This document shows, in pieces, positions 5,939-31,551 of a stretch of DNA of 64,000 nucleotides (positions are counted from its first letter, which is position 1; each line of letters starts with the position of its first letter). The notes under the pieces were generated by a model. The model saw only the letters and a list, made by a program, of their open reading frames with translations, made no database searches and was not told where the DNA came from. Source of the DNA: a virus; the IMG/VR virus record IMGVR_UViG_3300017925_000001, positions 45,725-109,724 of that record; one strand, written 5' to 3'. The position numbers were made by a program, and so were the translations under genes.

Positions 5939-6010
5939 CCCAAAGCTTAGCGGCTTTGGTGTAGAGTCGGGAGGTGCCATTCCACCTCCCCGCTCGACCT
6001 GAATGGAGGA
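5939..6010 (+). promoter_or_regulatory. two-hairpin pseudoknot element, copy A
   Basis: Hairpin 1 is CCAAAGC (5940-5946)/GCTTTGG (5953-5959) with loop TTAGCG. Hairpin 2 is GGGAGGTG (5969-5976)/CACCTCCC (5983-5990) with loop CCATTC, bracketed by GAG (5964) and CTC (5993). The loop is perfectly complementary to GAATGG at 6001-6006, which overlaps the GGAGGA ribosome site of the gene at 6014. The predicted pseudoknot would compete with ribosome binding. Other copies lie at 9729, 15138, 23960 and 31477. Confidence 0.72.
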
Positions 6011-6013
6011 ACT

Positions 6014-7009
6014 ATGATTAACAGAAATTTTGTGCGTTTAGTTTTGGCTGAAGGTGGAACAATCAAACCGTTGATGATTTCTTCTGTTGACTCTGGTGGG
6101 CTTGGGCTCTGTAACCCGTCAGTGTTTGTTGATCACGGTGAAATTTGGTTGATACTCAGAAATGTCAGTTACACGATATACCACTGCGAAAATGAGAAGA
6201 GATTCAATAGTCGGTATGGTCCGCTGAGTTATCTCAATCCAGAGCATGACCAGCATTTGCGGACTACGAATTTTCTTTGTAAGTTGACACCAAGTCTCGA
6301 AATAGAACGATACTGGAAAATCGACACTAGCCATCTCGACAAAGAACCGCTCTGGGAGTTTACGGGTTTGGAAGACGCTCGTCTCGTACGTTGGGATGGG
6401 CATCTGTACGGTATCGGAGTTCGGCGTGATACAACAACCAACGGTCAGGGACGGATGGAGTTTTCGGAACTCGAATTGGTCAACGACACTGTAAAGGAAA
6501 TCGGGCGATATAGAATTGAACATCCTACGGCTCCTGAATGGTATTGTGAAAAGAATTGGATGCCAGTGTTGGACATGCCTTACCATTTCATCCAGTGGAC
6601 AAATCCTGCGGTATTGGTTAAAGCTAACCTTACGACTTTGAAGTCCTATCGGGCGATTGAGGTCAATGAGTCTGGCAAGATTGAAGGCATGCCATTTCTC
6701 CGTGGGGGTTCCCAAGTAATCCCTTGGCATAACTATTACATCTGTATTGTCCACGACTGTGACCTGACCAAGAATCTCATAGGACAAAAAGATGCTACTT
6801 ACATGCATCGGTTTGTGGTCTATGACCGGAATTGGAATATAGTTAGGATTGGCGACCAGTTCTCTTTCATGGATGGGGAAATCGAATTCTGTTGTGGACT
6901 CGCAGAATATGAGAAGGACTTCTTGATGACGTTCGGTTTTCAAGATAATAGTGCTTGGATTTTGAAAATTCCATCATCTATAATTCCCAAATTGATCGGA
7001 GTAGCATGA
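6014..7009 (+). CDS. GH130-like five-bladed propeller protein
   Basis: 331 aa resembling the GH130/DUF377 beta-propeller family (mannoside phosphorylases and hydrolases, also found beside viral glycosyltransferases). Cues are CNPSV (33-37), GLEDARLVRWDG (118-129) with the family's E-D-x-R-L core, and a C-terminal FQDNSAWIL segment. No signal peptide. It may trim or phosphorolyse a glycan built by the nearby glycosyltransferases. Its start lies under pseudoknot element A, and its stop overlaps the following GIY-YIG gene by ATGA. Family call moderate; activity unknown. Confidence 0.6.
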   Translation: MINRNFVRLVLAEGGTIKPLMISSVDSGGLGLCNPSVFVDHGEIWLILRNVSYTIYHCENEKRFNSRYGPLSYLNPEHDQHLRTTNFLCKLTPSLEIERYWKIDTSHLDKEPLWEFTGLEDARLVRWDGHLYGIGVRRDTTTNGQGRMEFSELELVNDTVKEIGRYRIEHPTAPEWYCEKNWMPVLDMPYHFIQWTNPAVLVKANLTTLKSYRAIEVNESGKIEGMPFLRGGSQVIPWHNYYICIVHDCDLTKNLIGQKDATYMHRFVVYDRNWNIVRIGDQFSFMDGEIEFCCGLAEYEKDFLMTFGFQDNSAWILKIPSSIIPKLIGVA

Positions 7010-7743
7010 CCTTCTATACTTACACGTATCTTCGTGCAGACGGAACTCCGTATTATATCGGTAAAGGGAAAGACTATCGTGCGTTCAAGAATGGGGGTCG
7101 CCCATGCAAGAAACCGATTTACCATTCTCGTATTCTAATCCAATATTGGAAGTCTGAAGAAAAAGCGTTTGAAATGGAAGTCTGGTGGATCAATTTTTGG
7201 GGACGTAAGGATAACGGAACAGGTATTCTTAGAAATTTATCTGATGGAGGCGCAGGCAAGGCGGGATTTATACCTGACCCTGAACAGGGGCGCAAACACA
7301 GCAAATTTCTGAAAGACAAATTTGCATCAGGAGAGATGGGACCTCCCGGCGCTCAGTCTATAGAGGCGAGAAAAAAATTAAGTACATCGCTGAGGGCGGG
7401 ACATGCCTCTGGGGAAATAGTTACTTACAACAAAGGAATCCATGCTACTGATGAGCAAAAGGCAAAATGGTGGACGCCAGAACGGAGAGCCGCTCAAGCC
7501 GAACGGTGTCGTAAAATGGCAATGGAAGTTATTTTTACTCCTGAGCGTAGAGCTGCTTTAGCCGCTGCCGCTGCTAAAAGATTTAAGGGAATTCCTCAAT
7601 CCGAAGAACAGAAAACCCGAGCTAGAGAAGGTTGGAAAAAAGCTTGGACTCCAGAACGTAAAGCCGCTCGATCTGAGAGGGCAAAAGCGCAGGGATTTGG
7701 AACTATTATTCATCCATCAGTTCGGAGGAAAGATGTTTCCTGA
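7006..7743 (+). CDS. GIY-YIG homing endonuclease
   Basis: 245 aa. The GIY-YIG nuclease core is at the N-terminus (YTYLRADGTPYYIGKG, residues about 4-19), followed by the usual basic segment with EVWWINFWGR. The C-terminal half carries repeated NUMOD3-like helices (TPERRAAQAE, TPERRAALAA, TPERKAARSE) that bind DNA. Start ATG 7006 overlaps the previous stop; the 3-prime end overlaps the TPR gene start by 11 bases. A free-standing mobile endonuclease that would cut phage genomes lacking it and spread by repair. Confidence 0.88.
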   Translation: MTFYTYTYLRADGTPYYIGKGKDYRAFKNGGRPCKKPIYHSRILIQYWKSEEKAFEMEVWWINFWGRKDNGTGILRNLSDGGAGKAGFIPDPEQGRKHSKFLKDKFASGEMGPPGAQSIEARKKLSTSLRAGHASGEIVTYNKGIHATDEQKAKWWTPERRAAQAERCRKMAMEVIFTPERRAALAAAAAKRFKGIPQSEEQKTRAREGWKKAWTPERKAARSERAKAQGFGTIIHPSVRRKDVS

Positions 7744-8290
7744 ATTACTGAGATATATATCTGATCCCAAGAATGCAGAATATAATTTCCAACTCGGACT
7801 TTGGTATGAGAATTGGGGTCACACTGCGGGAGCAGCGGGTTTCTATGTTCGGGCGGCAGAATACTCCTCAGATGCTTTGCTATCCTATGAAGCTTTGCTG
7901 CGAATCGCCAATATCTTTACACGGCAAGGTGGTCGTGTCTACATGGTCAAGGGTGTTTTGTTGCGGGCCATATCCTTGATACCAGAGAGACCCGAGGCAT
8001 ATTTTCTTCTTAGTCAAGTGTATGAGAAAAACAAGGATTGGCAAGAAGCATACAGCTTTGCTGTAATGGGGCAACGACTCAGCGAAGACCAGCCTAAGCT
8101 TAGGACAAACGTGGAATACCCGGGGAAGTACGCTCTGGTTTATGAGCAGGCTGTCTCCGCATGGTGGATTGGTTTGTTCAAGGAATCCATCACTCTTTTT
8201 AAGCAGCTTCAGAAAAACAAGACAATGCTGCCGATCCATAGCGTATCCGTACAGGATAATTTGCAACGTTTAGAAGGATTAGTAAGGTAG
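7733..8290 (+). CDS. TPR-like repeat protein
   Basis: 185 aa starting at ATG 7733 (MFPELLRYI), with CGGAGGAAAG upstream inside the end of the GIY-YIG gene. The helical repeats with small/aromatic spacing (WYENWGHTAGAAGFYVRAAE, PEAYFLLSQVYEKNKDWQEA) are tetratricopeptide-like. Such repeats often sit beside or fused to glycosyltransferases, which fits the cluster. Likely a protein-interaction module; partner unknown. Confidence 0.65.
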   Translation: MFPELLRYISDPKNAEYNFQLGLWYENWGHTAGAAGFYVRAAEYSSDALLSYEALLRIANIFTRQGGRVYMVKGVLLRAISLIPERPEAYFLLSQVYEKNKDWQEAYSFAVMGQRLSEDQPKLRTNVEYPGKYALVYEQAVSAWWIGLFKESITLFKQLQKNKTMLPIHSVSVQDNLQRLEGLVR

Positions 8291-8311
8291 AAACAGGAAT
8301 AGGAGTTCAAT

Positions 8312-9151
8312 ATGTCAGTAACACTTTACCCAGGTGGTGACAACCCTGTCACTCCGAATCTTGGTTTGGCCTTGTGGGACATGAGCATGACCATGGCTGA
8401 GAACTTTGAACTTCTGGACTCGGCTGTGGCAGCAGGAAGCCTCAAGGTGAATGAGGCTTTGGTCACAGCCCCAAACTTTGTCAACAGCCCTACCGTCACG
8501 TTTTCTGCGGTTGGGTCAAATATTTCCTTAAACGCAGCTGATGATTTTTTATCTCTTGCTGGTAATACACCTACTACCCCAGTAACGGGCTCCATTTACT
8601 GTAATGCTTCATTCACTTTACCAGTTGTTGGAGATTTTACTGGAGGATGGACTACTGAGGATGTCACAGGAAATATTATCGCATCTGGTAACAGCTCTTT
8701 AGTAGGAGGGCCAGCAATATTTTTCACTGTACCGGGCTTTGCATACTATTTCAGTGCAGACTTGGCCGGTGTATCATTCAACTCTCTAGCGGGTGCCACA
8801 ATAGAAATTCTTAAAGGTTCTGGTGTTGATGTAGCCCACGTAGGAAACTCTACCGGTAATGCCGGAATGGAAACAGACACATTTAGCCCTGATAGTAACA
8901 GCTTTTATGGTGATCCAGTAGTTATTGGACAAAGTAACGATACTATATCTTCTAACTCAATCGTTATCTCTAGCGCAACCGGAACAATAGTCAATGGTCC
9001 GTTTATTGAGGCTACAACTAAAACTCCGGCATCATCTTCTGCCGCAGGGGTCACGGGCCAGATCGCTTGGGATCAAAGCTACATCTACGTTTGTTTGAAC
9101 GGCTCAACTCCGAAATGGGGTCGGGCAGCACTCACTTCGACAGGTTGGTAA
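8312..9151 (+). CDS. modular tail fibre-like protein
   Basis: 279 aa. The N-terminal block (VTPNLGLALWDM, then ENFELLDS) is shared with the proteins at 3642 and 26507. The C-terminal block (TPASSSAAGVTGQIAWDQ) is shared with the end of the protein at 25523. The middle is beta-rich and unrelated. The combination suggests a virion-attached fibre or baseplate appendage whose modules have been shuffled between paralogues. Receptor unknown. Confidence 0.65.
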   Translation: MSVTLYPGGDNPVTPNLGLALWDMSMTMAENFELLDSAVAAGSLKVNEALVTAPNFVNSPTVTFSAVGSNISLNAADDFLSLAGNTPTTPVTGSIYCNASFTLPVVGDFTGGWTTEDVTGNIIASGNSSLVGGPAIFFTVPGFAYYFSADLAGVSFNSLAGATIEILKGSGVDVAHVGNSTGNAGMETDTFSPDSNSFYGDPVVIGQSNDTISSNSIVISSATGTIVNGPFIEATTKTPASSSAAGVTGQIAWDQSYIYVCLNGSTPKWGRAALTSTGW

Positions 9152-9185
9152 AGAAAGAAAGAAAGAGAAAACATAGGAGAATTAA

Positions 9186-9719
9186 ATGAAGAACGTATTG
9201 AAAGCGGTTTTATTCGCTGCTATGTCTATCTCTTTATTTGGGACATGCCTTGCACAAGAAGGCAGATTGCAAGTAAAGACTCAGACGCACACTTTAGCAC
9301 TAAAAGAAAAAATCAAGGTTGATCCACCTACCAAGTATGTTTTGTCTGGCACCTATTTGGTATCCGGCAACGGCAATGTAACGTACATAGAACCTTTGTC
9401 TGTTACGTATCTTGACGACCCCTTAACAGTAACGTGCGCGAGCACATGTTCAATCCTAGGCAGCTTAACAGTGCAGACCAGTGGAAGTATTTCCAGTAAT
9501 AACCTGGCTGTATGTATGCTTGTGGATGGAGAACCTGTTCCAAACGGTTGTCAATGGTCTACTGATACTCCAGGTGATGGTACTTTTGTTGAAAGTTCTG
9601 TTTCTTCTTGGGTAGTAGATTTGCCTGCTGGGGAACACACAGTACAGACGGCCATAGCTTCTGAGTATGGCTGTGATTATGAATACTGGGGCTTTCAATA
9701 TTCTGTGTACAAGCCGTAG
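9186..9719 (+). CDS. secreted beta-rich hypothetical protein
   Basis: 177 aa with a clear signal peptide (MKNVLKAVLFAAMSISLFG, cleavage likely after LAQ near residue 24). The mature part has several Cys, perhaps in disulfides, and beta-rich composition, so it would fold outside the cytoplasm. An export signal is unusual among tail genes and suggests an envelope or host-surface function, for example superinfection exclusion, but nothing specific is recognised. Confidence 0.6.
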   Translation: MKNVLKAVLFAAMSISLFGTCLAQEGRLQVKTQTHTLALKEKIKVDPPTKYVLSGTYLVSGNGNVTYIEPLSVTYLDDPLTVTCASTCSILGSLTVQTSGSISSNNLAVCMLVDGEPVPNGCQWSTDTPGDGTFVESSVSSWVVDLPAGEHTVQTAIASEYGCDYEYWGFQYSVYKP

Positions 9720-9728
9720 GGAAAGCAT

Positions 9729-9801
9729 CTCAGGTCCTCGAAACCTGGGCTAGAGCTGGAAGGAGCCTAACTCTCCTTCCTTGCTCGATCTGATTTAAGA
9801 G
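9729..9801 (+). promoter_or_regulatory. two-hairpin element, copy B (degenerate)
   Basis: Hairpin 1 is CAGGT (9731-9735)/ACCTG (9743-9747). Hairpin 2 is GGAAGGAG (9758-9765)/CTCCTTCC (9773-9780) with loop CCTAACT, closed by GAG (9753) and CTC (9784). The loop pairs with GATTTAAG (9792-9799) at only 5 of 7 positions, so the pseudoknot is weak here. It sits just upstream of the first exon of the intron-containing tail gene. Confidence 0.6.
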
Positions 9802-9817
9802 CTGAATATCTAGAAAA

Positions 9818-9851
9818 GTGGAAGGAAGGGTAGCGATATCGGACATAACCT
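9818..9851 (+). CDS. exon 1 of the 1,670-aa tail protein
   Basis: Proposed short first exon ending at T9851, the predicted 5-prime splice site of the group I intron. The frame (GTG 9818) reads into exon 2 without a stop when joined at 10119/10120, giving ISDIT then YCFGGLITM. GTG 9818 has no good ribosome site. By analogy with the other elements the start might be ATA 9806, after TTTAAGAG and in the same frame. Exon identity is an inference from the intron fold and frame continuity. Confidence 0.45.
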
Positions 9852-10119
9852 TAAACAACTGGGTAAGTAAGTTGCCCCCTCAGTCAGTAATGATTGAGCG
9901 CAGAACCAAGAGAATTCGGTGAAACGCCCTCTGGGCCAATACCGAGCCGAGCCGCTAATGCGGAAGGTGTAACGACTATCCCGCAAGGGAGTAGGGAACA
10001 GTGTTCCCGAAGTACTTGGGGTCCTGAAAAGGATCATGATATAGTCTGGTCTTACTGGCAACAGTAAGAGTTCGAATGGAAACGATTCGAGCGTAACATA
10101 TAAACGACAGCTTCTTTGG
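9852..10119 (+). ncRNA. group I intron without internal ORF
   Basis: Complete group I core: P3 CCAAG (9906)/CTTGG (10015); P4 TCGGT (9916)/ACCGA (9941); P5 GCCC/GGGC; P6 CCGC/GCGG; P7 GACTAT (9974)/ATAGTC (10041) with the usual AACGACTA and GATATAGTC context; P7.1 CCC-GCAA-GGG; P7.2 GGGAAC/GTTCCC; P8 TCCT-GAAA-AGGA; P9 CTTACTG-GCAA-CAGTAAG; and a second P9-region hairpin at 10072-10090. P7.1/P7.2 suggest subgroup IA. P1 is probably ACCT (ending 9851) with GGGT (9861-9864). The 3-prime end is a G at 10118-10119 (10110 is possible). Splicing fuses exon 1 to the tail gene. Confidence 0.88.
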
Positions 10120-13100
10120 ATTGTTTTGGCGGTCTTATTACCATGGCTCAAGCCCGTGATTTGCCCGAAGGTGCGAGTCCGAGATGTTTCGACGTTGACT
10201 TTACAGTCGGTAGCGTAGCCACTCGTCCCGGCTTAGTATCCGTGTATACCTACGCAAATACTTGGGCCATCACCTCGTACTCCCTTGGTAGTGGTGGTCT
10301 TGCAACATTTAACTACACCGGTATCCCCGAGATCACCGAGAACGAAGGATTGATCCTCAGCGGATTCCAAGGACCTCTCAGTGTTTTGAACGGAACCACG
10401 ATATATGCCGAAGCTGTAACCATGAACACTTTCATGGCACAAGTAGTTGGACCCTTGGGCACCTTTGTCAACCTAAGCGCCAGCGCAGTTTCCCTAGTGG
10501 GCTCCTTTGTAGGGCCTAACCAAGGGGTTGCCTCTAGCACTTCTTGGAGTAGTCCGCAGAACGTGTTCAGTCCCACGGGGTACGCCTCGGCAAGCGGAGG
10601 ACAGACATACAGCCCTGCGATTGTCCCTGGATCAACGTCTAGCACTTCATCTACAGCTTGGACTAACCCAAGCTATGCTTTGTCCACAAGCCCAAGTACG
10701 TACGCTACTGTGAGTTCTCTTGGTGCAGGAGTGTCCGCACCCCTCTATGCGAGTGCTTTGGGCTTGTCTGTACCTCCCAATGCAACAATCACAGGGGTGA
10801 AGGTCGCATTCTCTGCTAGAGCTACAGAGGCCAGCGGTAATCCATACGTCATTGCTCAGCTTGTGCTGGGAGGGTCGCAAAGTTACTTGGGAAGCGCAGT
10901 AAATATTCCTATCGCAGCGAATGGCGCGAGTTTGGCTCCATACAATTATGGTTCCTCAACGTTTCAATGGGGTACCACTCTGACGCCCGCGATTGTCAAT
11001 GATCCTACTTTCGGGTTTGACCTAAGCGCTTTCACGGGAACTCTGTCGAACAACTTTCATTATTATTTGAACAGCCTCGTGGTCGCGGTTTACTACACCA
11101 CATCGGCTACAACAGAGATTCTGACGGCCAACAGTTTCGGATTCTCGATCTCGTTGTCTTCTGGAGTCTCAGGGTTCAACACCACTTTCAAAGCGTATTC
11201 CAGCGCATCTACTTCGGCAGTGTTTCAACTACTTGAGAACGGAGTTCCTCAGGGCACTCCTAAGACTCTTCCTCTCACCACTACGCCCACGGTGTATAAT
11301 CTGGGCGGGCCTGAGGACCCTTGGGGCTATGTCTGGTCAGCAGCCAACGTCAACTCTCCGCAGTTTGGAATTCAGATCACAGCCGAAGGAGTCGGCACTA
11401 CGTACGTAGGGGACTTGGATGTCACCACATTTGTCACCCCGGCGCTATCGAATTTCAACTGGATTGGGAGCTATGAGCAGACGAATGCTGCGCTTACCAC
11501 TCTGGCTCTTGATGCTGATGGCAACATGTGGGCTGAGAACGTTCTCAATAACCCTGGGGTACTATCGCTCTCATTGAGCGGTTTGCTTCCAGATTCGTAC
11601 GCGGTTGGAGCTACGATGAATGATTCCGAGTTCATCATGTTCTCGGATCTGAATATCGGCACCGACCGTCCTCGTCAGCTCTACAACGATGGAAACTGGT
11701 ATCCGGTGACCCAAGTGGGCCCTGGTAGTGCTCCGACATTCTTGGCTTCCACAGGTGGGATTACTAATACCCTGCACATCAGCGCTTACACAGCAGTCGC
11801 AGGCACACCCACTATTCCGTCATCAACGACCTTCACAATATCACCTGTGGCAGCTGTAGCTCCGGTTGTTGGATCACTTTATGTACTGAGCGGATTCACT
11901 GGGCCGGACGCAGTATTGAATGGTCAGGTGGTCACGGTTTTGACAGGTGCAACCACTGCTAGCTTTTCAGCAGATGTATCGGTTACTGCTCCAGGCAACA
12001 CCGCTGTCGTAGCTCTTGCTACGCTCACCTTCGCATATCCCATAGAGAGCATCAAACAATTGGGGTACATTACGAGCGGTCTGAGCGGTGGGGTGCTTTG
12101 GTTCCTTCTGAGTACAGGACCTAACCAGTCTGCTCAGGGCAGTGTAGTGACAGTGTACTACGCATATGCATCGCCTTCACTAGCGCCAAATTTGAACCTT
12201 CAGAATGCTTGGAATGCGTCTGTGGCTGGAACTGGTCCTCCAGTTTACGTGCAGATCAATAATGCAGCCAATGTCAATGGTTACAATTTTGATGGGATCT
12301 GGCAAGTCACAGGCATAGGGTACAACCATTTCTTGGGGTATACCTCACAGGGGTATTACTTCACTTTCCAGTACACTGAGTCTGGTTTTGCCAACGGCAC
12401 CAACAATGCCACGGCTTATCTGACACAAGCCACGTTGACCTTAGCTTCCCCTGGTGTCGTTGGGATCACGAATAATACACCCATCACTATTACAGGGGTC
12501 ACAGGAAGTTCTCCAGATCAGGTAGGGTACAACAATACGTGGGTTATCACCAACGCTGTCAATACAGGTCAGTATAACATCACTGAATCCCAGTATAATG
12601 GCGCTGGGGTTGCGACCTTCACATACAACTTCGCCTCTTTAACTAATAGTCAAGTTCCTGTTGTAGGTAATACCATTCAGATCATAGGCGTCACCAACAA
12701 TGCCGCCATGAACGGTATCTTTGCAATTTCGGCTGTGAATGCTGGCGCTTCTACATTCAGCGTGCTAGTGACTATCCCAGGCCTTGCAGCGCAGCCCTCA
12801 GCTATTGCTGAGAATAGTGCGCAGGCAACTATGGCTGGTACGCAGTTCATATTTGATCCTGGGGCTTTGCTGGCGGGCAGCGCATCTGGAAATGCTATAT
12901 TTGGAACAGCGACCGATGGAGACGTATCATTCATTGGTGTTACGCTGGTTCCGATAGGGGCAGGTACGCGCCAAGGTGTCGTGTTCTTCATTACGAAGAC
13001 TGGCTCTTGGACGCCTGCGTCTCCTCCTGTAACATTCACTATTGCAGCTGATGCAAACCAGCTCAATGTGTCGAATATCCCAATTGGACCTCCTGATGTC

Positions 13101-15134: not shown

Positions 15135-15137
15135 TAT

Positions 15138-15211
15138 CTCAAGGCTTAGCGGCCTTGGGCTAGAGTTGGGAAGTGCTATGAACACTTCCCTTCTCGCCTT
15201 TTCATAGGAGG
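15138..15211 (+). promoter_or_regulatory. two-hairpin pseudoknot element, copy C
   Basis: Hairpin 1 is CAAGGC (15140-15145)/GCCTTG (15152-15157) with loop TTAGCG, the same loop as copy A. Hairpin 2 is GGGAAGTG (15168-15175)/CACTTCCC (15183-15190) with loop CTATGAA, closed by GAG (15163) and CTC (15193). The loop is perfectly complementary over 7 bases to TTCATAG at 15201-15207, which enters the AGGAGG ribosome site of the GIY-YIG gene at 15216. Confidence 0.75.
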
Positions 15212-15215
15212 AATT

Positions 15216-15884
15216 ATGCCAACAGGAATTTATGAAAGAAAACCAACAATACCTAGAATGTCTAACTGTCACCCTGATAGAAAACATTTTGGAAAAGGAA
15301 TGTGCAACCAGTGTTATCATAAGGCTTACCACGTACAGCATAAGCACTCGTTTGTAGATGAGTTTGGTATTTCAATACCAGAGGGCTTCTATACCTACCT
15401 CTGGTTCAGGGCAGATAGCACCCCATATTATGTGGGAAAAGGCAACGGAAAAAGAGCCTACGTAAATCATGGACATTCGTTTCACAGACCTGTGAGTAGG
15501 GCAAGGATTTTTGTGCAATATTGGGAGTCTGAGGAAAAGGCGCTTGAGATTGAGGCTTGGTACATTGCTTTTTATGGGCGCATAGACAAAGGCACAGGTT
15601 GTCTCAGAAACCTAACAGATGGAGGAGAAAATCCTCCAGGCAATAAAGGTGTAAAGTTTTCAGAAGAGCACAAACGAAAAATAAGTGAAGCACAGAAAGG
15701 CCCTAAGGGACATTGGTTTGGAACAAAGAGGCCTTTTGTTTCTAGAGGTAAAGGTCGAGTACAAAACCCTGAATGGATTGCTAAAAGGGTAGCCAGTACA
15801 AAAGCAACTCGTGAGTGTAAGAAGAAAGGAGACCCTACGGTATGCAAGGCAGAACTAGCGCGCTCGATGGCGGGCAAGAGCTAA
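15216..15884 (+). CDS. GIY-YIG homing endonuclease with N-terminal zinc motif
   Basis: 222 aa. Residues about 10-40 hold CHPDRKHFGKGMCNQC, a Cys/His zinc-binding pattern. The GIY-YIG core follows (FYTYLWFRADSTPYYVGKG, about 52-70) with EIEAWYIAFYGR. A NUMOD3-type helix (FSEEHKRKISEAQKG) lies in the C-terminal half. It resembles the enzyme at 7006. Translation starts under pseudoknot element C. The last 43 bases overlap the next gene, so insertion left the downstream start intact. A free-standing mobile element. Confidence 0.88.
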   Translation: MPTGIYERKPTIPRMSNCHPDRKHFGKGMCNQCYHKAYHVQHKHSFVDEFGISIPEGFYTYLWFRADSTPYYVGKGNGKRAYVNHGHSFHRPVSRARIFVQYWESEEKALEIEAWYIAFYGRIDKGTGCLRNLTDGGENPPGNKGVKFSEEHKRKISEAQKGPKGHWFGTKRPFVSRGKGRVQNPEWIAKRVASTKATRECKKKGDPTVCKAELARSMAGKS

Positions 15885-17567: not shown

Positions 17568-17576
17568 GAGCATAAA

Positions 17577-19853: not shown

Positions 19854-19870
19854 TCGTATAGGAGTCAAGT

Positions 19871-23956: not shown

Positions 23957-23959
23957 TAT

Positions 23960-24032
23960 CCCTCGGGGTTGCTCCCGAGGATAGAGTGGGGAGGTGCTCA
24001 TTCCACCTCCCTGCTCGACCTGAATGAGAGGA
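23960..24032 (+). promoter_or_regulatory. two-hairpin pseudoknot element, copy D
   Basis: Hairpin 1 is CCTCGGG (23961-23967)/CCCGAGG (23974-23980) with loop GTTGCT. Hairpin 2 is GGGAGGTG (23989-23996)/CACCTCCC (24004-24011) with loop CTCATTC, closed by GAG (23984) and CTC (24014). The loop is complementary over 7 bases to GAATGAG at 24022-24028, which enters the GAGAGGA ribosome site of the HNH gene at 24039. Confidence 0.75.
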
Positions 24033-24038
24033 AAACAT

Positions 24039-24539
24039 ATGCCAGCAAAAGGACAGTTTCAAACACACTGTAAACGTGGCCACAAAATATCAGGAGACAA
24101 TCTGCATATTGTAAAAAGTACAGGTCAAAGAATATGCAGACGATGCCGAAGAGAAAGAGTCAGCGTCTATAGGAGTTCTGAAAAAGGAAAAAAAGCATCA
24201 CGTAGTACAGCTAACAACAATAGAGAAAAGATAAAGGTAGAAGTTCTCACGCACTATGGAAAAGGTGGGAAGCTTATGTGTTGTTGGTCTGGTTGCAAAA
24301 TTTGTGACTTAGACATGCTAAGCTTAGACCATGTGAAAAATGATGGTCAAGAACACGTTAGTGAAACAGGTATAAGGTATCTAGGCATACGTCTATATAG
24401 ATGGGCAAGGAGAAATAATTTTCCAAAAACTTTGCAAACCCTATGCTTTAACCATCAGCACAAAAAAGAAATTGTCAGGCGCAAAAAGAATAGGATCGAC
24501 AATCGTGAAAGAGATGCCAAGCGCATCGGAAGGAATTAA
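24039..24539 (+). CDS. HNH endonuclease with zinc ribbons
   Basis: 166 aa from ATG 24039. The N-terminal HCKRGHKISGDN then ICRRCRRERV forms a four-ligand zinc motif common in phage HNH enzymes. The nuclease part has CWSGCKICDLDM, then LSLDHVKNDGQ (HNH first His) and LCFNHQHKKEI (last His), consistent with a treble-clef betabetaalpha-metal fold. Basic throughout. Free-standing homing-type endonuclease placed directly behind element D. The next gene starts 3 bases later with the same first eight bases (ATGCCAGC). Confidence 0.8.
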   Translation: MPAKGQFQTHCKRGHKISGDNLHIVKSTGQRICRRCRRERVSVYRSSEKGKKASRSTANNNREKIKVEVLTHYGKGGKLMCCWSGCKICDLDMLSLDHVKNDGQEHVSETGIRYLGIRLYRWARRNNFPKTLQTLCFNHQHKKEIVRRKKNRIDNRERDAKRIGRN

Positions 24540-24541
24540 CA

Positions 24542-25243
24542 ATGCCAGCTTATCAGACTACACCTTTCAAGCCAACCCCAAAGGTCATGACTCCCGGTAT
24601 ACCCGCGTATTTTTGGGGAACGTGGAACGACAAAACCGGAAATACTACGGGCAAAGTTATTAGCAATTCTGCTGCTAGTACAACTGCTACAGTGACATTG
24701 CAGATTCAATCTGGAAATATCCCAGTAATAGGGGCTCTTATTAGTATTGTAGGTTCAACTAACTCTGCTGGCATTTTCAATGTTACTAACGCAGTTCTCT
24801 TATCAGTTTCATCGCCTGCAAACCCTGACGAGGGCATTTACACAGTAACATTTGCAATTTCTTCTACAACTCAGTCTACTATGACTGATTCTGGTATATT
24901 CCAAATACCACAGTCAGAAATAGGTGAACCTCTGGCAGCAGGTGCATCTGCACCGCTCGTTCAGATGTACAATATCATGTCCGCTAACCTGAGTCAGGCT
25001 GTGACTGTCGTGGCATCGTTCCCAAGTTTGCCAACGTCCGTGATTCTCTATCTGCAGCAAGCTCTGCAGGACCTGGATTCCGAGTATCAGACTGTTGCGA
25101 CTATAGCAACGGTCAGTACTGGGGCAGTGCAAGGGTCTCCCCAGATTTCAGTAGACCCCACGCTTGGGCGCTTTTTCAGAGTACTCAACGGAACCGTGGT
25201 GGGCGGAACACTACCTACCGTCATTTGTAAAATAATGATCTAA
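24542..25243 (+). CDS. structural hypothetical protein
   Basis: 233 aa, beta-rich and Thr/Ser/Ala/Val-rich, without catalytic motif. The C-terminal half has a helix-forming segment (LPTSVILYLQQALQDL) and a small folded beta module. Placed between virion and fibre genes; likely a tail or head accessory protein. Start ATG 24542 has AAGGAATTAAC upstream. Confidence 0.6.
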   Translation: MPAYQTTPFKPTPKVMTPGIPAYFWGTWNDKTGNTTGKVISNSAASTTATVTLQIQSGNIPVIGALISIVGSTNSAGIFNVTNAVLLSVSSPANPDEGIYTVTFAISSTTQSTMTDSGIFQIPQSEIGEPLAAGASAPLVQMYNIMSANLSQAVTVVASFPSLPTSVILYLQQALQDLDSEYQTVATIATVSTGAVQGSPQISVDPTLGRFFRVLNGTVVGGTLPTVICKIMI

Positions 25244-25253
25244 AGCTAGGAAT

Positions 25254-25297
25254 GGCCGGTGCTTTCCCCCGGCCTCATCTTTGCATTTCGAAGGGCA
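25254..25297 (+). promoter_or_regulatory. single-hairpin element F, reduced pseudoknot
   Basis: Hairpin GGCCGG (25254-25259)/CCGGCC (25269-25274). Loop TGCTTT pairs with AAGGGCA (25292-25297 core) by six pairs including two G-U, covering the AAGGG ribosome site of the gene starting at 25303. Only the second hairpin of the full element is present. It looks like a simplified relative of copies A-E; support is weaker because wobble pairs are needed. Confidence 0.4.
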
Positions 25298-25302
25298 CCC
25301 CT

Positions 25303-25518
25303 ATGGGATATAGCAATGAATTAGAAGTAACGAATCTCTTGCTTACCACCAATCTGCTACAGCAGACCAATGAACTTCAGGTTGCTAATGCTCTTTGGGC
25401 TGGAGGGGGGCAACCAATCCCCCCTAGTCCTCCGGTTTCTGCAAGCGGTTTCGAATTGGAAGATGGATCAGGAGTAATTTTGTTAGAGAGCGGGGATATC
25501 CTGCTTTTGGAGAATTAA
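25303..25518 (+). CDS. small hypothetical fibre-associated protein
   Basis: 71 aa from ATG 25303 (MGYSNELEVTNLL) with GAAGGG upstream; an ATG at 25252 would start inside the hairpin and lacks a ribosome site. The C-terminus (LEDGSGVILLESGDILLLEN) is a short beta motif found at the ends of phage structural proteins. Function unknown. Confidence 0.55.
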   Translation: MGYSNELEVTNLLLTTNLLQQTNELQVANALWAGGGQPIPPSPPVSASGFELEDGSGVILLESGDILLLEN

Positions 25519-25522
25519 TAAT

Positions 25523-26497
25523 ATGGCAAATACTAAAATCAGCGCTCTCACTTCTGGCAACCCTGCACAGGCTGGAGATGTAATTCCCATCGACCGTACA
25601 GGCGCAAACTTTTCAATTACAGCAGGTAGTATAGCTGCTCTAAACACTCTGCCTCAAACTGCTGCTGCTGTCGGATCAAAGTGGCTAAACAGTTACACAG
25701 CGTCCACAGGTGTATTCACAGAAACCCAGCCTACATTCACCGATTTATCGGCACACCCTACTACTCTTTCTGGGTATGGCATTACTGATGCTCTTCCTAT
25801 CGCTGGAGGAACTCTTACAGGTGCTCTATTATTCTCTGCTGATAACACATACGCTATAGGAGCAGCGGGTGCCACACGTCCAAGTACAGTGTATGCGGGC
25901 ACTTCAGTTGTTTCGCCCCTTGTGTCTATACCGTCTACTGGTGTAGTGGAATGGAGTATAGGGAGTAGTCCTGCTGGTATTAGTTATACAGGAGCTGCAT
26001 CACTTTCTATAGGTAATGGAACTTCTGGTGATTATTCTGGAGAGCTAAAGTTATCTACGCTGGACATTGGAGCGTACGCGGTTACCACACACATTCAGAT
26101 TAGCGCAGCTAATAGCAATATCACATTTCAAGATTCTTCGGGTGATCCAAAAATTGATTTAACGAGTACTGCTGGTCTTTTACTGTCAGATGATCTATAT
26201 ATAGGGTGGGGAGCCGATAGTGTACACTATTTTCCTCCTAGCACAAGTATTTCAAATCCTTCGGCTGGTACTGTTTCAATAGATACTACATCTGTTGGCA
26301 ATGGCCTTGGCTCTCTCACAGCAGCTAAATTAATCGAGAATGCTACGCTTACCCCTGCTTCCGCTACGACAGCAGGAGTAACAGGACAAATCGCTTGGCA
26401 AGGCACGAATGGCACAACTGGACAAATCTTCATTTGTACTTCTGGTGGTACCGCAAGCAACGCAATCTGGATGGCTGCAGCGTTGACCAAGGTGTAA
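25523..26497 (+). CDS. tail fibre or appendage protein
   Basis: 324 aa. The N-terminus MANTKISALTSGNPAQAGDV is typical of phage appendage proteins that begin with a T-K-I-S-x-L motif. Residues about 150-185 (LSIGNGTSGDYSGELKLSTL) match a block in the 3642 and 26507 proteins. The C-terminus (TPASATTAGVTGQIAWQG) matches the end of the 8312 protein. Beta-rich throughout. A modular fibre component, probably distal. Confidence 0.68.
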   Translation: MANTKISALTSGNPAQAGDVIPIDRTGANFSITAGSIAALNTLPQTAAAVGSKWLNSYTASTGVFTETQPTFTDLSAHPTTLSGYGITDALPIAGGTLTGALLFSADNTYAIGAAGATRPSTVYAGTSVVSPLVSIPSTGVVEWSIGSSPAGISYTGAASLSIGNGTSGDYSGELKLSTLDIGAYAVTTHIQISAANSNITFQDSSGDPKIDLTSTAGLLLSDDLYIGWGADSVHYFPPSTSISNPSAGTVSIDTTSVGNGLGSLTAAKLIENATLTPASATTAGVTGQIAWQGTNGTTGQIFICTSGGTASNAIWMAAALTKV

Positions 26498-26506
26498 AGG
26501 AGATTT

Positions 26507-27823
26507 ATGGCTGATCAATACCCTGCAAGTGGACTTACACCCAATTTAAAGATGACTCTGGAAGGAATAGCAGTTGGAATAGCTACTAACTTTCTTGAGC
26601 TTGACTCATTGTTTCCTAACGGGCCAACCCCATCAGGCTATCTTCTTCTTACTGGGGGTACCATAGCAGGTAAATTGGGAATTGTTCCCGCTGGTACTGT
26701 TGGTACAAGCCCTGTAGATGCTATTGACATTCTGCTTCCTCCTATAGGAGCAGATTCTTATTTAAAAATAACAGCTCCGGGTTTGACATATTCTCTAAGA
26801 GCTGGATCAGCATCTCTTAATCAATATGATATTATGGCCAATATGATTAGAGACGCAGTGGGAAATACCTATGCTGATGACCCAACGCATGTTGGCCTAC
26901 AATTCGCTATTTCCCCAGAAGGTAATCTTCATAATAGCGAATTTTGGTTTGCTGTTAATCCTGTCGGCGGAAATGGATCTGATATAGTTTTTCTTGTAAC
27001 TGGAGATGGTGTTGTAGGTATACCTGGCACATCCAGTGGACCTAGCACTCCTAATGGAGGAGTATTTGGTTGGTCAAACATTTATCCCGTTGATTATGAC
27101 CAATTAGACACCTATTTATGCCGTCTTTCACCCGGTGTTATAGGTATCGGGGCCAGTATAGGGTCTTACAACGGTTTTGATGGCTCTCTTAAACTTACTA
27201 ATTTGACTGTTGCTGGATCATTTACTGATAATTTATCCTCAACCGGATCGCTTGGGCAAGTTTTGAGCAGCACCGTAACAGGTATAAAATGGGTAGCTGC
27301 TCCTAGCCTTATATCTGCTGCATGGGCTACCTTGTATGGTGACCTGACTGAGAACCAAGTTATTCCTTGGGATGGGCCTACTTTAGGCATACCAGACACA
27401 GGTATTTCCCGTATTTCCGCGCACACTCTTGCATTCGGAAACGGGTCTGCCGGGGATTATTCTGGTCATCTACAAGCTGCTGTGTTTACGGATGGAGCGG
27501 GAACGTATTTATCCGGTGGAACTATACGTTTGGGAAATGGTGCAGGACAGATCAATATTAGTGGCTCTCAGATTTTATATGGTGGAGGAAATGGTTATGG
27601 TAATACCGGACACCTATTTTATATTGATGGGGTTGGAGAAGTTTTTTCGGTTCTATCCACCGGCATAGTACTATTGCCTTTGACTCCGCCTACTTCTGCC
27701 CATACAGCTGGGACACAAGGTCAGTTGACCTCAGGTACAGACGGTAATTTATACTTCTGTTCGATATCGGGACCGGGGGGTGGTGCAACAACTTGGAACA
27801 AACTCAGCATGACCGCAGTATAA
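26507..27823 (+). CDS. modular tail fibre protein
   Basis: 438 aa. N-terminal attachment module (LTPNLKMTLEGIAVGIATNF, then LELDSLF) shared with 3642 and 8312. A central block (SLKLTNLTVAGSFTDN through AAWATLYGDLTENQVIPWDG) matches the 3642 fibre in rearranged order. The C-terminus (TAGTQGQLTSGTDGNLYFCS) is a terminal beta module related to the other fibres. No enzymatic motif. Likely a receptor-binding or connecting fibre. Confidence 0.7.
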   Translation: MADQYPASGLTPNLKMTLEGIAVGIATNFLELDSLFPNGPTPSGYLLLTGGTIAGKLGIVPAGTVGTSPVDAIDILLPPIGADSYLKITAPGLTYSLRAGSASLNQYDIMANMIRDAVGNTYADDPTHVGLQFAISPEGNLHNSEFWFAVNPVGGNGSDIVFLVTGDGVVGIPGTSSGPSTPNGGVFGWSNIYPVDYDQLDTYLCRLSPGVIGIGASIGSYNGFDGSLKLTNLTVAGSFTDNLSSTGSLGQVLSSTVTGIKWVAAPSLISAAWATLYGDLTENQVIPWDGPTLGIPDTGISRISAHTLAFGNGSAGDYSGHLQAAVFTDGAGTYLSGGTIRLGNGAGQINISGSQILYGGGNGYGNTGHLFYIDGVGEVFSVLSTGIVLLPLTPPTSAHTAGTQGQLTSGTDGNLYFCSISGPGGGATTWNKLSMTAV

Positions 27824-27833
27824 AGGAGGCCCC

Positions 27834-28313
27834 ATGCAATTCTATGTCCGCTCCATCAGTAATCGCTTTCTTAGGTTCCTGTACAGCTTTTTCGTGCAGA
27901 TGCCCCTGGAGATCTACTGGCGGTTCATCACTGCGTACGTGCCAACGAGTGCCGTGTTCTTAAATTATACCAGCGCCACTGACCTAGAGCTTCACGCTCA
28001 GTGGTCATTGGCCCAGCAAGGCCTAGTGTCCGCTTCGTTTCCTTTGACTTGTTCAGAGAACGGGCCGATGCATGCGGCAGTGCCCGCAGCATTGACAGTG
28101 GTACCCAAGCACGTCACAGTTGTCTCGGTTCCCGACATCACGCCGGGTGCCATCGTGACGCCTGATATGACACAGGAACCATGCCATAGCTTTGCCTGCT
28201 GTTGGCGTAAAGGCAGAGTCTATGCGGCAGCGTCCAAGGTGCCGGTGACTTTAGCCTATGAGTTTCAGAACCTGATTTTAAGCGACCTCGGAATTGACGT
28301 ATCCCAGAGGTAG
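27834..28313 (+). CDS. hypothetical protein
   Basis: 159 aa with an aromatic, partly hydrophobic N-terminus (residues 10-40) that might be a membrane-associated helix, followed by a compact domain with several Cys (EPCHSFACCWRKGR). Not recognised. Encoded between the fibre block and a small membrane protein; AAGGAGG ribosome site. Confidence 0.5.
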   Translation: MQFYVRSISNRFLRFLYSFFVQMPLEIYWRFITAYVPTSAVFLNYTSATDLELHAQWSLAQQGLVSASFPLTCSENGPMHAAVPAALTVVPKHVTVVSVPDITPGAIVTPDMTQEPCHSFACCWRKGRVYAAASKVPVTLAYEFQNLILSDLGIDVSQR

Positions 28314-28322
28314 GAGAAAGAA

Positions 28323-28658
28323 ATGCAAGTTCAAACAATAGTGCCGCTTATGACACTGCTTTACAAGGTGTTCATGGGCCTGCTGGTCGCGGGAGGAATA
28401 GGTATTATTATGTGGCCTTTTAGATCCATACGAAAAGAGTGGAGAACCTTGAAAGACAGCGTAGCCGAGACGCATGCGGAGCTTGTCACCCAAAGGACGA
28501 ACTGTCTTACCACACTTCAAAATCAGGGGGATCGCCAAATCGAACTTTTAGGCAAAGCTGTGGAAACCCTTGGAAATATCCACACTTCTCAGGCTGCAAT
28601 GTCTGGTTTTATGCAGGCAACGCAGATCATAGCGGCTCCAACCCGTCGCAAACGGTAG
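28323..28658 (+). CDS. small membrane protein with helical tail
   Basis: 111 aa with one N-terminal transmembrane helix (residues about 8-34, YKVFMGLLVAGGIGIIMW) and then a charged alpha-helical region likely to form a coiled coil. That layout fits an inner-membrane spanin-like or other lysis accessory protein, but no partner outer-membrane lipoprotein is adjacent. Function is a guess. It is the last gene before the promoter at 28659. Confidence 0.5.
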   Translation: MQVQTIVPLMTLLYKVFMGLLVAGGIGIIMWPFRSIRKEWRTLKDSVAETHAELVTQRTNCLTTLQNQGDRQIELLGKAVETLGNIHTSQAAMSGFMQATQIIAAPTRRKR

Positions 28659-28688
28659 TTGACAAGCAGCTTCAGTTTGTGGTATAAT
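28659..28688 (+). promoter_or_regulatory. consensus sigma-70-type promoter
   Basis: TTGACA (28659-28664) and TATAAT (28683-28688), both perfect, separated by 18 bp. It begins one base after the stop of the preceding gene and points at the exonuclease gene at 28729. The same pair with the same spacer occurs on the other strand at 56459-56488. Likely recognised by the host housekeeping RNA polymerase and so used early. Confidence 0.85.
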
Positions 28689-28728
28689 GTTTATGAAGTA
28701 AATCAGTGACTCAGAAAGGTCAAATTTA

Positions 28729-29496
28729 ATGCCAGAGCCAAAGATTTTGTTTTTGGATATAGAGACGTTTCCCAACCTTGGGTACGTCTGGGGCAAATAC
28801 GACCAGAATGTCATTCGTTACACGCAGCAAAGTTGTATCGCTACCTTCGTAGCAAAGTGGGCAGGGAAGAAAGAGATCATCACTAAAGCTTTGCCAGATT
28901 ATGCTGGGTACAAGCCCGGTTCATACAGTGACAAGGCAATTGTTTTGGATCTCTGGAAACTGTTTGATGAGGCAGACATAATCGTCGCACATAATGGGGA
29001 TCAGTTTGATGTGAAAGTGGTGGTGGGCCGCTTTATCCTCCATAATATGCGCCCTCCAAGCCCGTTTAAAACAATTGATACCAAGAAACTCACCAAAGAA
29101 GTTGCTCGTTATAATTCGAACGCTTTGGACGATCTCTGCGGCCAGCTTTTCGAAACGCACAAGATCAAGACGGACTTCGATTTGTGGGAAGGTTGCATCA
29201 ATGGTGATCCGAAGTGTTGGGCAAACATGGTCAAGTACAACAAGGTAGATGTTCTTTTGTTGGAAAAACTGTATTATCGTTTAGCTCCTTTTGCAAAGAC
29301 ACATCCGAACCTGACCTTCTGGACTCGTGGAGAATGCCCCAAGTGTGGCGGTCATAACGTTCAGTACCGAGGGGTTGCCCGGTGTATCACTCGGCAATAC
29401 CAGAGATTCCAGTGCAACGACTGTGGCAGCTGGGGTCGGGTTGCGAAGAGCGATAAAGGTGCTGGCACCAAAACGGTTAACGTTCCAATTTGTTAA
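28729..29496 (+). CDS. DnaQ-like 3-5 exonuclease with C-terminal zinc ribbon
   Basis: 255 aa, RNase-H-fold DEDD nuclease. Exo I is FLDIET (residues 8-13), Exo II AHNGDQFD (about 87-94), Exo III KYNKVDVLLLEKLY (about 168-181, Y-x3-D). The last 60 residues add a zinc ribbon, CPKCGGHNVQ then FQCNDCG, probably for nucleic-acid binding. First gene behind the promoter at 28659. It could degrade host or damaged DNA, or proofread; which one cannot be told. Nuclease fold very likely. Confidence 0.78.
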   Translation: MPEPKILFLDIETFPNLGYVWGKYDQNVIRYTQQSCIATFVAKWAGKKEIITKALPDYAGYKPGSYSDKAIVLDLWKLFDEADIIVAHNGDQFDVKVVVGRFILHNMRPPSPFKTIDTKKLTKEVARYNSNALDDLCGQLFETHKIKTDFDLWEGCINGDPKCWANMVKYNKVDVLLLEKLYYRLAPFAKTHPNLTFWTRGECPKCGGHNVQYRGVARCITRQYQRFQCNDCGSWGRVAKSDKGAGTKTVNVPIC

Positions 29497-29514
29497 CAAA
29501 AGGAGACTCAGTAA

Positions 29515-29688
29515 ATGTCACAAGTGGAGTACATAGTACGTGTAGAGGGAATGCACAATTCATTTGGTCTTGGAGAAAAGATCGGTGATGGCATTACCCT
29601 CTTTAGGGCCGGTATGTATAACCTCACAGCAGAAGAAATCGACGCGAAGGTGAAGCAGACTCGGGCTCGGAAAGTCGAGAAGCTTTGA
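29515..29688 (+). CDS. small hypothetical protein
   Basis: 57 aa, not recognised; mixed charge and no membrane segment. Clear ribosome site AAGGAGACTCAGTAA before ATG 29515. The stop overlaps the next start (TGATG), so it belongs to the same operon as the exonuclease and dNMP kinase. Confidence 0.6.
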   Translation: MSQVEYIVRVEGMHNSFGLGEKIGDGITLFRAGMYNLTAEEIDAKVKQTRARKVEKL

Positions 29689-29816
29689 TGGAATATATTG
29701 AAGCAGCTTTTTCCCTCCTCATCGTCCTTGCAGTTGTGGGGACAATCATCCTCAGTCTCTATGGTGCGATCTCGGCGCTCGTCTGGCTTACGCGCTACAT
29801 TTGGTGGAAGCGATGA
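29688..29816 (+). CDS. 42-aa single-pass membrane protein
   Basis: One strongly hydrophobic helix (residues about 6-35, with LLIVLAVVGTIILSLYGAIS) and a basic C-terminus (WWKR). Start overlaps the preceding stop by TGATG; stop overlaps the dNMP kinase start by ATGA. It could be a small holin-like or membrane-modulating protein; no specific evidence. Confidence 0.55.
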   Translation: MEYIEAAFSLLIVLAVVGTIILSLYGAISALVWLTRYIWWKR

Positions 29817-30523
29817 TTATTGGGCCAGTGATTCACTCGGTGATCCTAGGCTACGGACATCGCGCTCGTTCTGGAAAAGACACCGCAGCCTCGATTATTA
29901 TCAAAGAACGCGGAGCAGAGTTTGACATACGCCGATATAGTTTTGCAAGTGAATTGAAGGCTGAGGTCAACCACAACGCTATGAAGGCTGGCGGCATGAA
30001 GAATTTGTTCGCTGACGGTCTACGCTTGGAAGGTTGCGGGTATATGCAGGAGAATGAAGAACTCCTGCGACTACCAGAATGGGTACAAATGGACCCCAGT
30101 CCCGATATGAGCGATCCCGAATGCCCATATGGCAAGCAACGCTCGCTCTTGCAATTTTGGGGAACAAACCTTAGACGATCAGTGAACGAAAACTACTGGC
30201 TCAACAAAGTGAAGCAGCGTATTGCCGATGAAAAACCACAGATCGCCCTGATCACAGACTTGCGTTTTTTAAACGAAGTGAATTTTATACTCACATACGG
30301 GGAAGTGATTCGCATCGACCGTCCTGGTCTCCCGCCTCTCAGTGAGGCGCACGAATCAGAGCTAGCTTTGGCCAATTATGATGGTTGGTCCGACATTATC
30401 AAGAACAATGGCACGCTGAACGAGTTCAAGGAAAAGGTTCTCTTCAGCTTTGACATGTTGCTTTCAGCAGTTCCGCAAGAGCACCGAACAGAGGAACCGA
30501 AAGGTACGGTGGTGAAGGTGTAA
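29813..30523 (+). CDS. deoxynucleoside monophosphate kinase
   Basis: 236 aa from ATG 29813. The P-loop is GHRARSGKDT (residues about 14-23), the variant G-x4-GKDT loop of T4 gp1-type dNMP kinases, followed by a helix with RYSFASELK. LITDLRFLNEVNFI is the Walker-B-like and lid strand of the family, with an arginine-rich LRRSVNENYW segment earlier. It phosphorylates dNMPs to dNDPs for phage DNA synthesis. Kept with an exonuclease that may release dNMPs from host DNA. Confidence 0.8.
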   Translation: MIIGPVIHSVILGYGHRARSGKDTAASIIIKERGAEFDIRRYSFASELKAEVNHNAMKAGGMKNLFADGLRLEGCGYMQENEELLRLPEWVQMDPSPDMSDPECPYGKQRSLLQFWGTNLRRSVNENYWLNKVKQRIADEKPQIALITDLRFLNEVNFILTYGEVIRIDRPGLPPLSEAHESELALANYDGWSDIIKNNGTLNEFKEKVLFSFDMLLSAVPQEHRTEEPKGTVVKV

Positions 30524-30555
30524 TGCTCTGAACTGAGCACCTTCAAGGACTCACT

Positions 30556-31470
30556 ATGAAAAAGTATTTGCTACCGATCCTGCTGTGGGCCCTCCTCGGA
30601 TTGGCCTCGGCAACCGTCACACCAGCACAGAAAACATTGCAGCACAAGGCTACGCACACGATTGTCATGTCGAATGAGAAGGCACATGATGGAGCTGGTT
30701 GCTCCGCAACGGCAATCTCTGAACATGTCCTGCTCACTGCTGAGCACTGCAATGTCCCAGGCAGTGTGCTTTACCTTGATCAGAACAACAGACCTTACCA
30801 GCACCCGCTGGAGATCTCAGAGCGGTACCTGGATCATCAGGATCATATGCTCCTAGTTCTCCCAGGCGTCTCGTTCAAGAACTTCGTGGATTATGGCTCC
30901 GCTGCTCCTTTGAAGCAGGGTGACCATTACTATCTGTGGGGCAACCCAGGCTTGATTCGAGACCAGTACCGCGAGGGCTACGTCACCGGGTCAATTGTTG
31001 ATCCGATCTATGAGATGGAGATTGATGCAGTCAGTTCCTTTCTCATGTTGAATGGACCTGTGATTGGTGGAGATTCAGGCAGCGCAATATTCAGCGCCGA
31101 AGATGGCCACCTTGCAGGAGTCCTGACGTACGGGATGGAGTACGGTATGTTCGCAGGCGTCTATCCGCTCGCGTTCACAGCTGATCAGATCGCGCAGGCC
31201 GAGGGCGTAGGTTCATTCGTCTACTTGCCCGACACTCGCCCGGTCGTCAATGTCAATGCTACTGCAGCTCACTCTGTAGTCGATCATAGCGAAGCTCCTC
31301 TGTGGGCTCTGGTGTGGTTGTTCGCAGTCTGCATCTTGTGGTACACGCTGGGTGGCGTGTTCAAGACACTAGCCAAGGGCATACGCGGGGCAGCAGGGCC
31401 GGTCTGGAAGGCAATGAAGTACGTGGGGCGGCTGTTCAAAACTGCATACCAAACTTTAAAGAAAATATAA
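30556..31470 (+). CDS. membrane-anchored trypsin-like serine protease
   Basis: 304 aa. Signal peptide at residues 1-20 (LLPILLWALLGLASA). Chymotrypsin-fold triad: His in VLLTAEHC (about 60), Asp in LDHQDHMLLVLPG (about 97), Ser in GGDSGSAIF (about 174). A transmembrane helix (LWALVWLFAVCILWYTLGG, about 252-270) and a basic C-terminal tail follow. It should act outside the cytoplasmic membrane; target unknown (host envelope or competing phage proteins are possible). An exported protease in a phage early operon is unusual. Confidence 0.75.
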   Translation: MKKYLLPILLWALLGLASATVTPAQKTLQHKATHTIVMSNEKAHDGAGCSATAISEHVLLTAEHCNVPGSVLYLDQNNRPYQHPLEISERYLDHQDHMLLVLPGVSFKNFVDYGSAAPLKQGDHYYLWGNPGLIRDQYREGYVTGSIVDPIYEMEIDAVSSFLMLNGPVIGGDSGSAIFSAEDGHLAGVLTYGMEYGMFAGVYPLAFTADQIAQAEGVGSFVYLPDTRPVVNVNATAAHSVVDHSEAPLWALVWLFAVCILWYTLGGVFKTLAKGIRGAAGPVWKAMKYVGRLFKTAYQTLKKI

Positions 31471-31476
31471 TTACAT

Positions 31477-31547
31477 CTCCCGGGGTTGCTCCTGGGGGCT
31501 AGGGCCCTAGCGTGACTCCATCGCGTTGGGGCCTGTCCTATGGAGGG
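31477..31547 (+). promoter_or_regulatory. two-hairpin pseudoknot element, copy E
   Basis: Hairpin 1 is CCCGGG (31479-31484)/CCTGGG (31491-31496) with loop GTTGCT, identical to copy D. Hairpin 2 is a longer imperfect stem (31502-31512 with 31522-31534) with loop TGACTCCAT. CTCCAT in the loop is complementary over 6 bases to ATGGAG at 31540-31545, overlapping the GGAGGG ribosome site of the HNH gene at 31552. The stem sequence differs from the other copies, but the layout and the loop-to-site pairing are kept. Confidence 0.68.
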
Positions 31548-31551
31548 ACAC

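Follow-up and report, generated by a model that had tools for sequence, protein, structure and literature searches.

A conserved RNA pseudoknot leads homing-endonuclease cassettes in a group of uncultured phages and probably lowers endonuclease translation

The window analysed here is a stretch of 64,000 nucleotides, positions 45,725–109,724 of a 109.7-kb phage record from IMG/VR (IMGVR_UViG_3300017925_000001). It carries five copies (A–E) of an RNA element with two hairpins, P1 and P2, and a further five lie in the remaining 45.7 kb, giving 10 copies in this genome. A first-pass annotation, made from the letters of the window alone, had described copies A, C, D and E at the places listed below, each with two hairpins and a perfect 6–7 bp pairing between the loop of the second hairpin and bases before the next gene, and this was confirmed for all four. 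It had counted five copies; the fifth (B) indeed has both hairpins but lacks the pairing, and the pseudoknot is thus found in four of the five. The features are (window coordinates):

5940–6009 (+): copy A, covariance-model score 68.5 bits; P1 5940–5946/5953–5959; P2b 5969–5976/5983–5990; loop 5977–5982 with 6001–6006 (CCATTC/GAATGG, perfect); Shine-Dalgarno sequence (SD) GGAGG 6005–6009
6014–7009 (+): 331-aa ORF following copy A, without a family match
6955–7743 (+): gene for a GIY-YIG homing endonuclease, the second one 3′ of copy A; the ATG at 7006 is its probable start
9727–9797 (+): copy B; covariance-model match 9723–9809, 61.3 bits, E = 3e-13
9855–10068 (+): group I intron core directly 3′ of copy B (RF00028, 54.2 bits; exon alignment with L014)
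15138–15212 (+): copy C, 81.4 bits; P2b 15168–15175/15183–15190; loop 15176–15182 with 15201–15207 (CTATGAA/TTCATAG, perfect)
15216–15884 (+): GIY-YIG endonuclease with NUMOD3 behind copy C
23960–24033 (+): copy D, 73.6 bits; P2b 23989–23996/24004–24011; loop 23997–24003 with 24022–24028 (CTCATTC/GAATGAG, perfect)
24039–24539 (+): HNH endonuclease behind copy D (phrog_1492, 1.6e-12)
31477–31549 (+): copy E, 43.6 bits; P2b 31507–31514/31522–31529, divergent with several G-U pairs; loop 31515–31521; partner 31540–31545 (CTCCAT/ATGGAG, perfect)
31552–32265 (+): HNH endonuclease behind copy E (PF01844, 4.9e-7)

The starts 24039 and 31552 of the genes after copies D and E replace those given earlier. 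Searches of Pfam, PHROGs and PDB sequences gave no match for the 331-aa ORF. Copy A is the only pseudoknot copy in the window that does not directly precede an endonuclease gene, which counts against the mechanism proposed below. The loop of copy B (CCTAACT) finds no downstream partner beyond 3 nt, and no endonuclease gene stands behind this copy; its P1 and P2 are intact. It is followed by the group I intron, whose core sits inside the 5′ end of a 1672-aa gene. The intron occupies 9800–10145, with the proposed exons CTGGGT|ACAGCT (HNLKQLG|TASLD) as in L014. Phage L014 carries, at the point where the window holds this intron (LG|TASLD), an element together with a 30-aa remnant of an endonuclease; the insertion (L014, 3600–4020) lies near codon 9 of the homologue of the 1672-aa gene, and the first codons of that gene are repeated on both sides. 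At the position of the ATG of the 5′ copy in L014, the conserved frame of the window gene reads ATC, and this gene may start with ATC or have a disrupted start.

The element has the consensus RTATC, P1, (GC)TAG and P2 at its 5′ end and GACCTT, the partner of the P2 loop, the SD and ATG at its 3′ end. P1 is a hairpin of 7–8 bp with a loop drawn from few types that recur across phages (TTAGCG, GTTGCT, CTCGAA, TTATAA, TAATTA, TTGATCA, GACG). After a linker of 2–5 nt comes P2, composed of 3 bp, an internal loop (usually 2x2), 8 bp (P2b) and a loop of 6–7 nt; the anatomy of the first-pass annotation has to be amended to this build of P2 and to P1 as part of the element. Nearly all of the P2 loop is paired downstream, and the resulting helix of 6–7 bp makes an H-type pseudoknot. 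The helix mostly ends 7–9 nt 5′ of ATG, and the last two bases of the partner are usually the first two of the SD (GGAGG or GGAGA). Of the 61 elements for which an upstream stop codon was found, 54 have P1 starting at most 15 nt from it; P1 is missing from several elements. P1 as a terminator could be ruled out, as no T-run follows it.

The element was found repeatedly by searches that presuppose different parts of it. A scan of both strands of the window for 7-bp hairpins whose loop has a reverse complement of at least 6 nt downstream recovers copies A, C, D and E, each with perfect pairing. Searching viral contigs with a P2 pattern gave 27 stretches, most of which are built alike but have different loops, matched by their partners. 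A P1 pattern that encoded neither P2 nor the pseudoknot matched 16 distinct places: at 14 the scanner found P2 with matching loop and partner, at one more (L039) loop and partner agree on reading, and another is a chance match in a coding region. A pattern for the 3′ end mostly hit chance loci, which were used only after a structural scan. Finally, a covariance model without the pseudoknot yielded 86 distinct elements on about 40 IMG/VR phage contigs among the records searched. Such a search of related phages had been named beforehand as a check on the first-pass annotation.

Among 42 aligned elements, covariation with two-sided changes is seen at 23 of the 26 pairs, as compared with 15.3 ± 1.8 after shuffling, and none of 500 shuffles reached 23. 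The number of cells changed on both sides is 199, versus 54 in shuffled alignments and 34–60 when the partners are slid. The loop pairing was not encoded in the covariance model and was thus tested independently of it: a match of at least 6 bp is present in 79 of the 86 elements (92%, a figure that a better parse raises), whereas permuting the loops among elements gives 1.2%, with a maximum of 7.3% over 200 permutations. The arrangement of P2, pseudoknot, SD and ATG occurs 107 times in the real sequence and four times in the same sequence reversed. Departures from Watson-Crick pairing in P2b are 34 G-U versus 4 A-C, as predicted for a sense-strand RNA; it should be noted, however, that an RNA-based search itself favours G-U. 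The pseudoknot is therefore a real RNA structure with its pairing under selection, far beyond chance. This sustains the earlier claims that the stems covary, that loops and partners change in sequence while remaining paired, and that a selected pseudoknot lies at these ribosome sites.

What the earlier reading had missed is that the element is the leader of homing-endonuclease cassettes and not a general regulator of phage genes; its interpretation is thus partly supported. An intact homing endonuclease gene (GIY-YIG, HNH or endonuclease VII-like) lies directly downstream of at least 75 of the 86 elements, a count in which not every member was scanned singly and some were classed from their catalytic motif or from BLAST similarity to members that had been scanned. 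In the first set, 51 of 52 downstream proteins were of GIY-YIG (with NUMOD3 or SegE), HNH or EndoVII types as judged by family search, motif or homology, the sole exception being the 331-aa ORF at copy A, which is followed by a gene for a GIY-YIG endonuclease; the elements added afterwards precede genes of the same kinds. The proteins are mostly 140–280 aa long. For seven or eight elements, what follows is a remnant, a phage gene or nothing, and this group includes the three unpaired ones. The pairing is absent from three elements (copy B, L263 and L278:7908), none of which has an intact endonuclease behind it, but is kept in L282, L255 and L040 despite a decayed or vanished endonuclease, and the latter counts against a function in endonuclease translation. 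Two endonuclease ORFs (L289:14183–15019 and L278:1527–2297) look as if fused to a neighbouring gene, the other part matching a separate coiled, Glu/Lys/Val-rich protein of relatives.

The association has a strand preference. In a hand-curated census of the five best-covered genomes, from which clear BLAST artefacts were removed by hand, about 26 of the 45 endonuclease genes that lie on the structural-gene strand have the element (29 of 45 with the P1-less leaders found later), as against one of 12 on the other strand, a decayed remnant (P = 0.003). About a third to half of the endonuclease genes in these genomes are without the element, which again counts against the proposed function.

Element and endonuclease come and go together. 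Site C, flanked by the 1672-aa gene and the gene at 15842, is occupied by both in the window, L009, L014, L032 and L019, and is empty of both in L006/L298, L295 and L299, which have just a short intergenic hairpin there. This hairpin is terminator-like, lies between the genes and is replaced by the cassette. In L296 the gene at site C is of the HNH type, preceded by a divergent leader and a promoter of its own. Site D holds the element in the window and in L018, with different HNH genes behind it, and is empty in L006. Since both sites are empty of both parts in related phages, RNA and endonuclease form one cassette. The endonucleases at site C are of two different GIY-YIG kinds, and both kinds are found behind the TTAGCG-type element that four phages have in common there. 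It is conceivable, if on balance doubtful, that the element is a portable control module to which unrelated endonuclease families were joined repeatedly, the leader staying constant and the endonuclease being the exchangeable part of a mobile cassette, possibly with a phage-encoded trigger to open the pseudoknot.

We consider it likely that the element lowers translation of the endonuclease through the pseudoknot. Cassettes would insert between phage genes such that P1 and then P2 follow the stop codon of the upstream gene. The P2 loop pairs with the bases just 5′ of the endonuclease SD plus its first bases, and the pseudoknot, 7–9 nt before the start codon, would compete with binding of the 30S subunit, which would meet it at the landing site and could displace it at a cost. 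This reading is supported by the covariation and by a pairing that was tested without being built into the model, and also by the end of the partner, which lies inside the SD as GG|AGG or GG|AGA in 39 of 59 elements. The endonuclease genes downstream, the joint presence or absence at sites C and D, the lack of an intact endonuclease behind the three unpaired elements, the strand preference, the position of P1 and the promoters of P1-less leaders speak for it as well. The first-pass annotation had the partner overlap the SD and the pseudoknot "bury" the ribosome site. The partner does run into the SD, but only about its last two bases overlap the SD core; burying is overstated, since the pairing covers the first part only and the duplex is the weaker one. 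Median energies are −13.4 kcal/mol for the P2b hairpin, −7.2 for the loop-partner duplex and −9.3 for SD:anti-SD; element by element, SD:anti-SD outweighs the loop-partner duplex in 44 of 59. The brake may therefore be mild, an attenuator rather than a lock, and with the SD only partly covered, partial or tunable repression is likelier than tight closure.

P1 would separate the pseudoknot from ribosomes finishing the upstream gene: a ribosome ending at the upstream stop would melt P1 and not P2. Four P1-less leaders lie directly behind near-consensus sigma-70 promoters (at most two mismatches): L003 13204, L261 6815, L268 19303 and L021 5314 (−). These promoter-like sites are just 5′ of P2 and not inside the pseudoknot. 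Together with the position of P1 near upstream stops, this small sample argues for P1 as an insulator that read-through messages would require.

Other explanations have to be weighed against an attenuator. The pseudoknot could be a switch in which a phage or host protein, a ligand or a time signal binds the conserved P1 loops or linkers and opens or closes it, so that the endonuclease is timed. The recurrence of P1 loop types across phages, the partly conserved linkers and the near confinement of the elements to the structural-gene strand fit this. SD-sequestering H-type pseudoknots in which the 3′ strand overlaps the SD are known from the preQ1-I and SAM-II riboswitches. The element differs from these in having no conserved ligand core, metabolic gene or Rfam match: near-invariant unpaired positions are few, a large invariant unpaired core as expected for ligand binding is absent, the P1 loop is exchangeable and P1 is missing in several elements. 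A switch is thus unlikely, and nothing points to the ligand, protein or timing trigger suggested earlier. A self-cleaving ribozyme or processing site separating the endonuclease message would agree with a compact double-hairpin pseudoknot with partly conserved linkers; it is very improbable, as no Rfam ribozyme matches even at E up to 10, strictly invariant unpaired positions are almost nil and the partner goes with the SD of whichever gene follows.

Conversely, the pseudoknot might raise expression by freeing the SD region of other structure or by stabilizing the mRNA end. Part of the SD is unpaired, and SD:anti-SD pairing is the stronger in the 44 of 59 elements mentioned. However, the first SD bases are repeatedly in the partner, which would be needless for a helper, and the known leaders of phage endonucleases repress (PMC2988022); we regard this as improbable. 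Least probable of all is a feature at the DNA level, a folded single strand or a recombination site for cassette insertion. Element and endonuclease are gained together, as such a site would predict, but the position before SD and ATG is fixed, the pairing is gone in three elements whose ORF is gone, and P2b has the strand asymmetry given above, with the same reservation about the search.

The absence of a named riboswitch or ribozyme, as claimed at first, was borne out. With Rfam 15 at gathering thresholds, matches in the window are limited to a tmRNA and a group I intron, and no family covers the element; copy C gives only chance-level matches at E up to 10 (E 2.2 and 6.7). A blastn search of copies A and C and an element from L013 against 50,697 phage records gave nothing or chance pieces. 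No element was found by the covariance model in the whole genomes of five cultured phages with related endonucleases, and none of the 86 loci matched by the P2 pattern on GTDB genome contigs had a convincing whole element in the structural scan. A literature search, with most subscription papers outside its reach, found T4 reviews and unrelated papers and no described element. Several known RNAs were considered and rejected: a group I intron (P3-P7-P8 core) for copies A–E, as RF00028 matches only 9855–10068; HEARO or IscB omega RNA, as there is no Rfam match and the downstream proteins are mostly GIY-YIG, HNH or EndoVII types of 140–280 aa, where an IscB-type protein (RuvC plus HNH) would be expected; and the gene 32 autoregulatory pseudoknot, as the downstream genes encode endonucleases and not a single-stranded DNA-binding protein.

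Leader hairpins that mask the ribosome-binding site are known for I-TevI, I-TevII, I-TevIII and segB of T4 and mobE of Aeh1 (PMC2988022, PMC3014915), and the masked sites of I-TevI, mobE and segB count as precedent for the attenuator. The likeness is that, judging by sequence, the ribosome site of a phage homing endonuclease gene is sequestered by an RNA structure 5′ of it, and that the cassette sits in or between phage genes. By analogy, the element probably keeps potentially harmful selfish endonuclease genes quiet. The T4 and Aeh1 leaders are, however, simple hairpins, described as particular to their genes and relieved by an internal late promoter (PMC2988022, PMC3014915), whereas here one module of P1, P2 and pseudoknot serves genes of GIY-YIG, HNH and EndoVII-like types, and its P1 form appears to contain no promoter. 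The seg43 leader of Aeromonas phage 25 likewise has a stable hairpin just 5′ of the SD of a free-standing endonuclease, but pairing of its loop with the SD is not reported (PMC2988022). The T4 gene 32 leader also affects translation initiation through a pseudoknot in a phage mRNA; there the pseudoknot serves to nucleate binding of gp32, 67 nt 5′ of the start codon, it does not pair with the SD, and the gene behind it is a different one (PMC3014915). New, as far as Rfam and the literature searched show, is a conserved pseudoknot family common to unrelated endonuclease families; masking of a ribosome-binding site by RNA was already known.

Previous control cases for phage homing endonucleases were a handful, T4-like and described singly. 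The family offers some 10 natural variants within a single genome and loop/partner pairs by the dozen, and it makes a general idea testable: selfish nucleases may owe their persistence to a portable RNA brake that accompanies them. For work on RNA folding, the elements also provide a ready collection of compensated pseudoknots that are alike in geometry and differ in sequence, and they can serve as a marker for endonuclease cassettes and their remnants in metagenomic phages.

The tmRNA among the Rfam matches lies at 51034–51252 (−) of the window and scores 59.3 bits with RF04321 (gathering 47) and 49.9 bits with beta_tmRNA; ARAGORN finds nothing there. It is probably a phage-encoded permuted (two-piece) tmRNA.
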